Position numbers and translations under genes: made by a program
Part shown: positions 3,097 through 52,327 of the stretch, piece by piece
Layout: each line of letters opens with the position of its first letter
Numbering within the stretch: position 1 is the first letter of the stretch
NCBI GenBank assembly: GCA_001650895.1
Contig: LXYH01000030.1
Coordinates: 1 to 64,000 of the forward strand
Source of the DNA: Rhodobacteraceae bacterium EhC02
GTDB taxonomy: Bacteria > Pseudomonadota > Alphaproteobacteria > Rhodobacterales > Rhodobacteraceae
Direction: 5' to 3'
Length of the DNA stretch: 64,000 nucleotides
The notes under the pieces: generated by a model
Seen by the model: the letters and a program-made list of their open reading frames with translations, nothing else
Database searches by the model: none
Told to the model about the DNA's origin: nothing

Positions 3097-3303
3097 ATGC
3101 CCAACGGCACCGTGAAGTGGTTCAATACGACGAAAGGCTACGGGTTCATCGCCCCCGAAGACGGCGGCAAGGATGTTTTCGTTCATATCTCCGCGGTCGA
3201 GCGGTCCGGCCTGACCGGCCTCGCCGACAATCAGAAGCTGACCTACGAATTGCAGGAAGGTCGCGACGGGCGCCAGATGGCGGCCAATCTCAAGCTTCTG
3301 TAA
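3097..3303 (+). CDS. cspA: Cold-shock protein, CspA family
   Basis: A 68-residue single cold-shock domain. RNP1 is seen as KGYGFIAP (about 13-20) and RNP2 as DVFVHIS (about 28-34), so it is a single-stranded RNA/DNA-binding OB fold. Start at 3097 follows GAAGGAG at a good distance; an in-frame ATG at 3079 lacks one. These proteins act as RNA chaperones in cold or stationary phase. The gene is monocistronic with its own AT-rich upstream region and a leader hairpin. Which Csp paralogue it is cannot be told from the window. Confidence 0.95.
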   Translation: MPNGTVKWFNTTKGYGFIAPEDGGKDVFVHISAVERSGLTGLADNQKLTYELQEGRDGRQMAANLKLL

Positions 3304-3353: not shown

Positions 3354-3752
3354 TCAGGTGAGGGCGCGGGTGATCACCACCCCCGCCCAGGCCGAAACGC
3401 CCGTCAGGACCGCGCCCCAGGTCAGGTCCACGGCGACCATGTGCCAGTGCCAATCCCGGAGCGTCGCGTAATTGGTGAACTCGTAGGTGCCGTAGGCCAT
3501 GGCGCCCAGGACCGCGCCCCCGATCAGCGCGGCCATCGGCGCCGCGTCGCGCAGGGCGGGCAGCGACACGAAATAGAGCAGCCCCCCCACGTAGAACAGA
3601 TAGAACACCGCCGCAGGCCCGATGCGGATCGGTTCGGCCAGCAGATCGCCCAGATGCGTCTCGAACAGCGGTTTGAGGACGCGCGTCAGCATGATCGCAT
3701 CAAGGATCAGGAAGACGGCGGCGGTCGAGACATAGAGGATGACGAGTTGCAC
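3354..3752 (-). CDS. DUF2177-family membrane protein
   Basis: A 132-residue protein with four hydrophobic segments, matching DUF2177. Conserved features are the LDAIMLTRVLKPLF stretch near the first helix, the YLFYVGGLLYF helix, and TYEFTNYATLRDW near the end of helix 3. I use GTG at 3752 because AAGG lies about 10 bases upstream and the product then begins directly with the first helix. The longer ATG frame to 3935 runs through repeat A and is not credible. Function of the family is unknown; it is probably in the inner membrane. Confidence 0.82.
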   Translation of the reverse strand: MQLVILYVSTAAVFLILDAIMLTRVLKPLFETHLGDLLAEPIRIGPAAVFYLFYVGGLLYFVSLPALRDAAPMAALIGGAVLGAMAYGTYEFTNYATLRDWHWHMVAVDLTWGAVLTGVSAWAGVVITRALT

Positions 3753-3833
3753 GGATGGGCTGCCTTTCGCTTTGGTTGAAAGGGATACGGCCAGGGTTGC
3801 GTTTTGGATGAAAGACAGCGCCACCCGCCCCAT

Positions 3834-4000
3834 CCCGCGCGGTCGCCGACACGCGGGGTGGCGAACCCGCCTTTGTGAGAGGCAGTTTATCCCTGCCCAG
3901 TCATCGAGCCTAAGTTCGTGCCGCAACGGTCGCAAAATCGCCGCCCCAGGGGGCGGGTCGGCGATCGCGCGGCGGCGCTACGCGCCTTGTTCCGCGCGGG
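3834..4000. repeat. Dispersed palindromic repeat A, copy 1
   Basis: This 167-base stretch is closely similar to 52158-52327. Shared blocks include GCGCGGTCGCCGACACGCGG, GGCAGTTTATCCC, GCCCAGTC and TCGGCGATCGCGCGGCGG. Both copies begin with CCCGCGCGG and end with CCGCGCGGG, an inverted terminal repeat, and carry subterminal inverted arms (CGCGCGGTCGCCGAC against GTCGGCGATCGCGCG). There is no coding gene inside. This looks like a non-autonomous or REP/MITE-like intergenic element. It sits between the DUF2177 gene and the AT-rich gene at 4025. Confidence 0.8.
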
Positions 4001-4024
4001 AGGTTGTAACAAAGCAGCTAAAGT

Positions 4025-5050
4025 CTATTCAGCCTGAGTTTGCCCAGATCCAAAGTTTTTCGGGGTTAGTCCCATAACTGGCACTGGTAGAATGCTGCGA
4101 TCTTCATTCTTCAAGTACCCAGAATCATGAGGAGAGTAGATTGCACCAGCTGCATACTGCAAAACTACGTCTTTTGTTTCGAAGGTACCTGCTGCTTCCG
4201 CCAGTGTCGTATATGTCATCAATGCATTCTGTCTATGACGGTTAGTCACTTCGTTATGCTTATGAGCCTGATAAATCTTGACACATTGCGCCATCGAAAA
4301 CGCCAACACCGCGAAAACTAGCAATTTACTCGCAGTTATCTGAACAGCCTCCATCAAAGAATCTGATGCAAGGACATCCCAATATGGGAAAAACATCGTA
4401 AGCGCTGAGTAAAACAGTAGCAAAGCGGCACTCAAAACCGAAGCCCACAACCACTTAAACGCTGCCTTGCCGTGTCGTTCTGCTTCGTCTTTGAAATATT
4501 TAGCTTGCTGAGTTACTCCTTGCTCTGCGGCCGCGTCTTTTACCAGCTGCAGTACTTTTTCTGCCTCGCGAGATACTTGATCCAATTCTGCTTGAATCAT
4601 TTTGTTTTCGTCGCGAATAGACTGAACGGCGCCACGAGCTTCTGCTGTGAGCGCATTAAAATCAACCGTACGTGCAACTGCGAATGAAATAAGCAACTGC
4701 AGCTTCTCTAAATATTCATCATGCGCCTGCTTTATTTGGTTTATTAAATTCTCTCGTCGAGAATTAAAATCACCATCTGCCGGCTTTATAGACGCAACCT
4801 CATCAAAAAGCCTGTAAACAGACTTACACCAAGATTGAACTTGCTTTTTCTGCTGAAAGGTAAATTCATTAATGGAATCAGCAGGGAGCTTTCGAAAAAC
4901 ACTAATTAATCGCCGAGCGGGCTCAACAGCTTCAGAAAAATCCGACTCTACACCAAGCCGTGTACTTTGCCTCAAATCACTAGCGTCAAATTTCTGAACT
5001 CTCTCCAAGTCGGCAATTACGTCTTCAATAACAATTGTGTCTTCCGACAT
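4025..5050 (-). CDS. AT-rich, probably acquired coiled-coil membrane protein of unknown function
   Basis: A 341-residue protein. Residues 1-100 are charged and helical, and about 105-190 look like a coiled coil. Two hydrophobic helices follow at about 200-222 (WLWASVLSAALLLFYSALTMFF) and 238-258, then a soluble tail of about 80 residues. The tail has a striking pattern, NRHRQNALMTY, then ETKDVVLQYA and a final SGYL, which I recall from other uncharacterised bacterial membrane proteins but cannot name. GGGAGT precedes the ATG. Base composition is visibly richer in A+T, with many AAA/TTT runs, unlike every neighbour, and repeat A copy 1 abuts its 3' end. Acquisition by transfer is the best explanation. 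I do not assign a function. Confidence 0.75.
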   Translation of the reverse strand: MSEDTIVIEDVIADLERVQKFDASDLRQSTRLGVESDFSEAVEPARRLISVFRKLPADSINEFTFQQKKQVQSWCKSVYRLFDEVASIKPADGDFNSRRENLINQIKQAHDEYLEKLQLLISFAVARTVDFNALTAEARGAVQSIRDENKMIQAELDQVSREAEKVLQLVKDAAAEQGVTQQAKYFKDEAERHGKAAFKWLWASVLSAALLLFYSALTMFFPYWDVLASDSLMEAVQITASKLLVFAVLAFSMAQCVKIYQAHKHNEVTNRHRQNALMTYTTLAEAAGTFETKDVVLQYAAGAIYSPHDSGYLKNEDRSILPVPVMGLTPKNFGSGQTQAE

Positions 5051-5093
5051 TTAGAAAATACTCCCACAAAAGTACGCTTATCTCTTTAAACCC

Positions 5094-5999
5094 TCACCCC
5101 AAGGTATCGATAAACTCCCGCCATTCGCCCTTGCTCATGCCGGAATTCTCCTGCGTGACATCCTCGCCCTTCAACATCCGGCGCACGCAGTCCAGCGCGG
5201 TCGCGCTCATCGTGGCGCCACCCATGCGGTAATCCTCGAAGGCCTTGTAGGCGAATGGCACCCAGTCGGCGACCACCTTGCAGATCGCATCGGCATAGAC
5301 GCGGATCTCGTATTGCGCATGGGCATCCGCGCGCAGGCGCAGGAAATGCAGCAGGTTGTGCAGATCCACCTTCCAGTACCACTGGGTATAGATATTCGCA
5401 GGCAGGTTCATCCGTGCCAGCTCGCGCGCAAGGCCCAGCTGGCCGTCTTGGCTGATCATCGCCTCGTAATGGTCATAGGCGCGGTTCGCGTCGGTCTTGA
5501 GGATCTCCAGCACGCGGGCGGCCTCTTCGCCTTCCAGCGCGGCACCGCGGCCCTGATTATTGACCACCGATTGCGCGGCCAGATGTTCGGGCGCGGGGAT
5601 ATAGAATTCGCGGTCCAGGATCGAATAGCGCGCGGAATATTCGTTCACATTCGCCGTCCTGTGCCGAATCCACTGCCGCGCCACGAAGACGGGCAGTTTC
5701 ACGTGCAGCTTGACCTCGCACATCTCGAACGGGGTCGAATGCCAGTGCCGCATCAGGTAGCGGATCAGCCCTTCGTCATTCTGCACCGATTTCGTGCCCT
5801 TGCCGTAGCTCACGCGCGCAGCCTGGCAGATGGCCGCATCGTCCCCCATGTAGTCGATCACGCGGACAAATCCGTGATCCAGCACCGGGATCGCGGTGTA
5901 GAGATGTTTCTCCATGCCCGGCGATACCGCGCGAAGGGTCGGCTGCGCCTGTGCGCGCTGTGCGTCAACCTCGGCCTGCTGGTCTGGGGTAAGCGGCAT
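5094..5999 (-). CDS. thyX: Flavin-dependent thymidylate synthase ThyX
   Basis: This enzyme makes dTMP from dUMP using methylene-tetrahydrofolate and FAD/NADPH. The ThyX motif [15 protein letters not shown] (family pattern RHRxxxxxxxS) is present near residues 110-124. The 301-residue length is slightly longer than small ThyX proteins but usual for Rhodobacterales. I start at 5999, preceded by AAGGAG; the open frame continues upstream to 6146 without a ribosome site. No thyA is in the window. Links to folate metabolism are through folD, fhs and purU elsewhere here. Confidence 0.96.
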
Positions 6000-6216
6000 G
6001 TCGAAGCTCCTTGATAGGGTGTCTGAGTCGGGGGCAACTATATCTTGAGGATGCCACCCACGGAAACCACAATAGTAAGATGGTTGTCCGGGCGCCGCAC
6101 CGTGTTTTTCGATGCCACGCGCCGGGAATTTTTCCATCTTCGCCACGTGGGTCGTTGACTTTGCCGCGGTGCCACGGGACTCTTCTGCTTAAACCAAGTC
6201 TTTCGAGGGCGGCATT

Positions 6217-52157: not shown

Positions 52158-52327
52158 CCCCGCGCGGTCGCCGACACGCGGGGAGGCGATGCGACCATGA
52201 TTCCGGGGCAGTTTATCCCCGCCCAGTCTTCGGACCTCAGTTCATAGCGCGACGGTTGCGACATCGCCGCCCCGGGGGGCGTGTCGGCGATCGCGCGGCG
52301 GTGCTGCGCACCTTGATTCCGCGCGGG
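52158..52327. repeat. Dispersed palindromic repeat A, copy 2
   Basis: 170 bases similar to 3834-4000, with the same terminal CCCGCGCGG/CCGCGCGGG. In this copy a further inverted arm follows at 52352-52385: CGCATCGCCACCCCGCGTGT and CGGCGACCGCGCGG, the reverse complement of 52161-52193 with one mismatch. The whole 52161-52385 block therefore has about 33-bp inverted ends. Confidence 0.8.

Follow-up and report, generated by a model that had tools for sequence, protein, structure and literature searches.

A foreign-looking gene for a two-helix membrane protein in an accessory-gene hotspot behind thyX of Rhodobacteraceae

We analysed a 64,000-nt stretch of DNA from Rhodobacteraceae bacterium EhC02 (contig LXYH01000030.1 of assembly GCA_001650895.1; hereafter the window), in which a gene for a membrane protein stands directly behind a core gene that we take to be thyX, named by recognising its protein rather than by a family search (Table 1). 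On the far side, the gene is followed by a GC-rich repeat, a conserved gene whose product is presumably a DUF2177 protein (called by eye) and a cspA-like gene. The sequence-only reading of this DNA had described an AT-rich gene unlike its neighbours, and the base composition bears this out: GC is 0.44 against 0.652 ± 0.030 in 56 other open reading frames (ORFs) of the window (z −7.1) and GC3 is 0.39 against 0.79 ± 0.05 (z −7.8). Both values lie beneath the minimum of all 56 comparison ORFs, which were called greedily within the window, a crude procedure by which part of them are probably no real genes. The gene is real and its composition looks foreign.

Table 1. Features at the thyX locus of the window (positions in the 64,000-nt stretch)
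Feature	Position	Strand	Remarks
Inserted gene	4025..5050	(-)	341-aa two-TM, largely helical membrane protein; by sequence, distant relative of DUF6161 (PF19658)
thyX (FAD-dependent thymidylate synthase; name presumed)	5094..6002	(-)	Core gene; stop codon 43 nt before start codon of the insert
Leader, thyX stop to ATG	5051..5093	(-)	43 nt
Insert extent against the empty site of G002 (L007)	4001..5093	.	Edges uncertain by about 3 nt
Dispersed GC-rich repeat with short inverted ends	3834..4000	.	Slot side far from thyX; also in L007 and L008
Far-side conserved gene (presumably DUF2177)	3354..3800	(-)	Anchor in flank comparison
cspA-like gene	3100..3303		Next after the 3354..3800 gene; anchor in flank comparison

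The short leader between the two genes carries a putative ribosome-binding site, GGGAG, seen by eye before the inserted gene. A search restricted to sigma-70-type promoters returned no match between positions 3800 and 6300 (0 found; 1.7 in shuffled sequences), and co-transcription of the gene with thyX by read-through is therefore plausible. Because its start lies 43 nt behind thyX, the gene would be at most co-transcribed, without stop–start coupling.

Comparison with congeners showed that the gene is an insert. It occurs once in its own genome and is absent from all six other congeners, of which three have genomes at least 90% complete and two also lack a thyX match. In the sister genome G002 (L007) the site is empty: nothing separates the repeat from the 3′ end of thyX, and the window has about 1,093 nt more. 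Four congeners were examined at the site itself, two of which have the repeat without the gene (L007, L008) and two a different gene beside thyX (L006, L009). We read it as a gene for a ribosome-hibernation factor; a gene of this kind lies near the same place in L006, L007 and L009, and none was seen beside thyX in the window. The gene is thus not shared, at the same site and with the same composition, by all close relatives, and the transfer proposed from the sequence is supported by foreign composition, by the absence from the six congeners and by the empty site in one of them.

The repeat, by contrast, had been taken for a further sign of transfer, which our comparison does not support: it is present in L007 and L008, where the gene is missing, and dispersed in the genome, and is therefore no trace of the insertion. 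The repeat predates the insert. It had also been said to touch the 3′ end of the gene; it does lie close, yet ends 24 nt before the stop codon, so that there is no contact. Its ends are 9-bp inverted sequences, CCCGCGCGG and CCGCGCGGG (by eye), and the genome contains 15 matching stretches, eight of which span 125 or more of the 166 query positions. A second copy of this approximately 165-nt intergenic repeat lies at 52165–52327 of the window. We discarded the repeat as a mobile unit, since only three of the eight copies with flanks (the window, L031 and L036) adjoin AT-rich stretches; those beside the copies in L031 and L036 have a GC of 0.41–0.48.

The protein itself is conserved most clearly towards its C terminus. 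In an alignment of 51 sequences, six positions are invariant (F186, Q237, K242, H265, R273 and G311) and thirteen more are conserved in at least 90% (H263, N266, N270, H272, Q274, N275, A276, L277, T279, L297, A300, I304 and T310), which substantiates the C-terminal pattern noticed in the single sequence. The two-helix description likewise agrees with what we found, two hydrophobic helices behind a long helical segment: hydropathy predicts transmembrane (TM) helices at about 201–222 and 235–262, and the family average agrees. The loop between them is short and negatively charged and the TM flanks are weakly positive, suggesting by charge that both ends of the protein are probably cytoplasmic (N-in/C-in).

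An AlphaFold2 model built from 49 sequences is all-helical (mean pLDDT 83.5, pTM 0.46), with a bundle at residues 8–128, a single long helix (131–219) that continues into TM1, a helix continuing out of TM2 (232–286), a short helix (290–305) and a low-confidence tail; given the pTM, the arrangement of the domains in the model is unsure. Neither phmmer nor a profile search against the PDB gave significant relatives, and Foldseek against the PDB gave no match at E 0.001, its best rows being long-helix axonemal proteins. VIA matched the N-terminal bundle to IncA (Z 10.1), Cbl (9.8), tomato NRC2 (9.7) and others; we discarded the likeness to plant immunity (NRC2), as Z values of this size are usual for common helical arrangements. 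The Foldseek and VIA rows listed included no SLATT or CBASS effector, a result that leaves room for a SLATT-type fold. Similar models occur in phages in BFVD (best E 1.7e-8).

Among named families, Pfam DUF6161 comes closest. The window protein matches it at E 1.5e-5 over residues 97–316, with 25 bits under a gathering score of 27 bits, and at E 0.01 it is matched by nine of the 51 relatives, the best of them at E 1.5e-5; hhalign against four DUF6161 rows, including one fragment, gave a probability of 72.5 and E 3.3e-5 over 141 columns. The aligned portion is the C-terminal two-TM part with its motif. DUF6161 proteins differ elsewhere: of eight matches in the order, six are frames of 428–524 aa with another N terminus by eye (the remaining two are 138 and 143 aa). 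Judging by sequence, the window protein is a distant relative of DUF6161 that stands outside the family by the gathering score. A literature search, mostly among journals outside subscription, found no paper on DUF6161. SLATT_1 reached 12.3 bits against 26.3 (E 0.18) with the window protein, and no SLATT family was among the 15 Pfam families listed for the 51 relatives at E 0.01. PADLOC returned one match for the window protein (E 0.031), none convincing, and matches in six of the 51 relatives (best 1.6e-5, LeoBC).

The family is rare and widely scattered. At E 0.001 it was found in 4/394 and 4/390 genomes of two partly overlapping samples, each including the genome of the window and one weak match (L004, 29% over 155 residues; L090, E 8.1e-4 with a stop). 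Across a collection of 84,980 species, scanning gave 48 loci with relatives in seven phyla: Pseudomonadota (alpha, beta and gamma), Nitrospirota, Myxococcota, Thermodesulfobacteriota, Acidobacteriota, Verrucomicrobiota and Planctomycetota. Full-length relatives are mostly 324–347 aa (L067 and L079, as called, 374 and 361 aa), and the GC of the gene is lower than that of the whole locus in 47 of 51 loci (by eye). An Aeromonas relative (L082:9980-11011) is split into two open frames, perhaps because the copy is broken or the sequence contains an error.

As in the window, the relatives in L039, L040, L041 and L044 lie directly behind thyX; we therefore examined thyX loci of the family. From 121 loci, 120 were kept (L105, in which thyX is cut at the contig end, was left out and the locus of the window was included), of which 119 extended 500 nt or more downstream. 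Within 600 nt after thyX, GC dropped by at least 0.10 in 59 of 119 loci, as compared with 0 of 60 before thyX. With one genome per genus and the genome of the window left out, it was present in 16/45 and an AT-rich ORF in 15/45 (45 of the 47 other thyX-bearing genomes; G034 and L105 left out). Further score-ranked loci gave 42/71 and 39/71, respectively, a sample biased towards close relatives, the 142 genomes with thyX having been ranked by score and read approximately from the highest downwards. In other families of the class, the drop followed thyX in 1 of 19 loci (20 of 64 other thyX-bearing genomes, from the top of the list; 19 with enough sequence), and the hotspot therefore seems particular to Rhodobacteraceae. 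In long regions, the drop fell within the first 1.2 kb after thyX (12/19 and 4/19 windows) and appeared in 2 of 468 windows outside 0–3 kb; these regions were hand-picked after the first survey of loci (20, with L213 left out), so that 12/19 is a contrast with the background and biased as a rate.

An AT-rich ORF on the same strand follows thyX in 55 of 120 loci and none does in the other 65. Forty of the 55 start between −40 and +20 of the thyX stop, 14 of them with the called start exactly at −4 (ATGA); starts were taken from the longest frame, and those at −31 and −40, inside thyX, are doubtful. Such inserts were found in all nine species examined of genus g56—eight with other inserts and the ninth (G471 = L041 = L091) with a relative of the window gene—and in 10 of 11 of genus g295. 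In the cases measured, homology between species breaks off at the thyX stop codon and resumes 1–82 nt past the stop of the insert, in a GC-rich, hairpin-rich block. The inserts of g56 and g295 have no nucleotide similarity among them up to their ends; what these loci have in common is thyX and the GC-rich block after the insert, both outside the inserts. Accessory genes of Rhodobacteraceae have a hotspot at the 3′ end of thyX. Our literature search, with the same coverage, returned no thyX-linked hotspot among its best-ranked results, and the main text of PMC13092281 mentions thyX 0 times.

A gene behind thyX might instead serve thymidylate synthesis, for example as a membrane regulator of nucleotide pools, and be an old member of a thyX operon that was lost in most lineages. 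This would suit a quick tree in which all five copies directly behind thyX, that of the window included, fall into one group of eight rows (99% SH-aLRT; the other rows are L042, L043 and L087), and it would suit Parvularcula (L043), where the gene lies 2 nt behind a gene that we read by eye as nrdB, another nucleotide gene. We consider this origin very unlikely, as family matches are confined to 4/394 and 4/390 genomes compared with thyX in 48 of 61, unrelated genes occupy the slot in about half of the loci examined, only L039–L041 and L044 among the relatives in the scan were found beside thyX, and the composition of the window gene is foreign. The use of nrdB as a second hotspot or control gene was abandoned, the Parvularcula query having given three weak matches in 61 genomes.

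We then characterized what else fills the slot, using 53 occupants (the 55 AT-rich ORFs minus the window gene and its relative L094). Among 25 listed of 31 Pfam families, whose members may overlap, RVT_1 was found in four occupants, AAA_15 and AAA_21 in three each, and the CAP12-PCTIR TIR domain, DUF4062, RelA_SpoT, HicA and DUF7946 in two each; single occupants had SMODS, TIR_2, HEPN, PIN_12, PIN_8, DUF4238, DUF3644, HSDR_N, HSDR_N_2, DUF4357, HATPase_c, Glyco_transf_11 and others. PADLOC matched AbiP2 (1.8e-164) and other RT models in four members (among the best 25 of 258 matches); in a search with 47 of the 53 occupants, the best 25 of 50 entries included PDC-S14, S19, S33, S34 and S35, a CBASS-type cyclase, TIR-TM and RT_UG13b. 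Different genes, often of defence type, thus stand at the same site in related genomes, the occupancy looked for in a defence hotspot. Several occupants resemble one another by eye: those of L140, L145 and L146 are similar small membrane proteins of approximately 180 aa with a pattern like NPFWLFLGIVSGALIQ, and L168 with L188, and L144 with L176, are pairs of similar unnamed proteins in the thyX slot of different genomes. The matches to DUF7946/DUF7947 may belong to one of these two pairs.

The same list bears on whether the slot is unselective, taking up small genes of any kind provided that thyX allows their expression, the window gene being a mobile stress, membrane-homeostasis or toxin–antitoxin-like gene without antiviral function. 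HicA and RelA_SpoT (two occupants each) and Glyco_transf_11 (one), among the 25 of 31 families listed for the 53 occupants, fit such a slot, integron cassettes carry many functions, and two TM helices with coiled coils also suit channels or scaffolds. The recognised domains are, however, mostly of defence type among the rows listed—an enrichment that is our judgement on that list—and the two phage-borne copies described below are placed as lysogen-protecting genes usually are. A non-antiviral role is therefore the less likely explanation, though one to be reckoned with.

Relatives of the gene also spread by integrons and temperate phages. On the Vibrio tubiashii plasmid pFP31, a relative belongs to an integron array in which attC-type sites recur between the genes; the region also has genes annotated as Hhe and AbiH. 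Aliivibrio L051 and Vibrio diabolicus L086 have 25 and 20 attC-like sites, respectively (1.25 in shuffled sequences), on both sides of the gene. Of 51 relative loci, 13 have such sites close to the gene, a count that includes some weak sites, comes without a near-gene null and misses the gene-side sites of L018, which escaped the scanner. (Of two early attC scanners, one was noisy, scoring the window at 6, below many shuffled maxima, and one so strict that it missed most Vibrio sites.) Of 49 genomes searched, 28 had an integron integrase over the cut-off, as against 0 of 14 control genomes chosen without taxonomic matching, and in L048, L062 and L074 matching coordinates place the integrase beside the relative. 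Two further relatives are on temperate-phage contigs with an integrase, one between the portal and integrase genes (L087) and one between the integrase side and the tail genes (L088). Both are oriented against the structural genes and lie between these and the integrase end, a region where genes that protect the lysogen are often placed.

Clustering of up to six neighbours on each side across 51 loci revealed no conserved partner gene; the recurrent neighbours outside the thyX group were mobility genes, namely integron-type integrases in L048, L049, L062 and L074. By eye, L070, L072, L075 and L083 have a member of one integrase-like gene cluster within six genes, a hint of island mobility as opposed to integrons, and genes like REP-associated tyrosine transposases lie beside relatives at L039:11088-11600 and in L048 and L060. 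PADLOC on 59 neighbours chosen from 107 gave scattered single matches (among the best 25 of 31 families).

Given these cassettes, the window gene might itself be one, put directly into the chromosome at a secondary site by an integron integrase. Relatives are cassettes in several gammaproteobacterial arrays, and three of them adjoin the enzyme in question. At the window locus, however, a home-made scanner of limited sensitivity found no attC-like site, the best integrase of the genome reaches 85 bits against an integron-integrase cut-off of 265, and the g56 and g295 inserts are dissimilar up to their ends. We regard such an event as most improbable. Gene transfer agents are conceivable carriers of short inserts.

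Our preferred reading is that the window gene occupies a slot at the 3′ end of thyX that is repeatedly refilled by horizontally acquired, AT-rich and often defence-type genes, and that it acts as a stand-alone phage-defence module; taken as a whole, we find this reading favoured. That the gene is a swappable, mobile one-gene module of phage defence is itself probable, because a foreign gene sits in a slot that holds successive antiviral-looking genes. Single-gene membrane proteins of this kind had been put forward, from the sequence, as candidates for defence or stress systems; this candidacy is strengthened, circumstantially, because the occupants of the hotspot are often of defence type and the relatives lie in integron arrays and on temperate-phage contigs.

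How the protein would most likely act can be suggested from its predicted structure. It would span the inner membrane twice, with cytoplasmic N and C termini; the N-terminal helical bundle and long helix (residues 8–199) would oligomerise and sense infection, and the TM helices, together with the HKHN..NRHRQNAL.TY segment right behind TM2, would form the effector, which would damage or depolarise the membrane so that the infected cell no longer supports the phage. The position directly behind thyX (with other occupants overlapping its stop codon) would permit expression without a promoter of its own. The pore or membrane-damage step is proposed from the topology, and the role of membrane(-damaging) effector is a tentative assignment.

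A membrane-damaging logic has been proposed for the SLATT effectors and the TM effectors of CBASS and Pycsar (SMODS-/SLOG-associating 2TM effectors), which have in common with the window protein two TM helices, helical cytosolic parts and no enzymatic domain. Unlike in those systems, no second-messenger enzyme adjoins the window gene (by eye), and its N-terminal helical domain is larger. Integron-borne defence cassettes, reportedly described by Darracq et al. and Kieffer et al. (both in the reference list of PMC13092281), are similar in that relatives of the window gene form cassettes of one gene in arrays of Vibrio and others; the window copy differs in being chromosomal, without attC and without an integron integrase. 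In a core defence hotspot, a fixed site at core genes carries defence genes that vary between strains. The thyX slot resembles the core defence hotspots of Pseudomonas aeruginosa, as treated in the part of PMC10250203 available to us, in being a fixed core-gene site with varying defence genes, and differs in that the Rhodobacteraceae slot mostly begins with one AT-rich gene at the thyX stop codon.

A bolder version of this reading, which we think unlikely, would make the 3′ end of thyX a dedicated immune slot, an integron-like exchange site without an integrase, with precise exchange of one gene at a time in the space bounded by the thyX stop and, opposite, by the GC-rich repeat. Translational coupling to thyX would then be part of the immune logic, linking the effector to a host thymidylate synthesis that is disturbed by phages, and the slot, integrons and temperate phages would have in common a new family of one-gene membrane effectors, with the window protein as its founding member.

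The overlap of the stop codon of thyX with the start of occupants raises the question of how immune genes are expressed without promoters. If the preferred reading is true, the thyX slot—filled in about half of the loci examined and in a third at one genome per genus, with many occupants lacking a named family among the matches listed—would be a simple, searchable source of new one-gene defence candidates in a large bacterial group, and the family of the window protein, whose hosts span seven phyla and which integrons and phages carry, would be strongly placed as a candidate for a new membrane effector that works alone.
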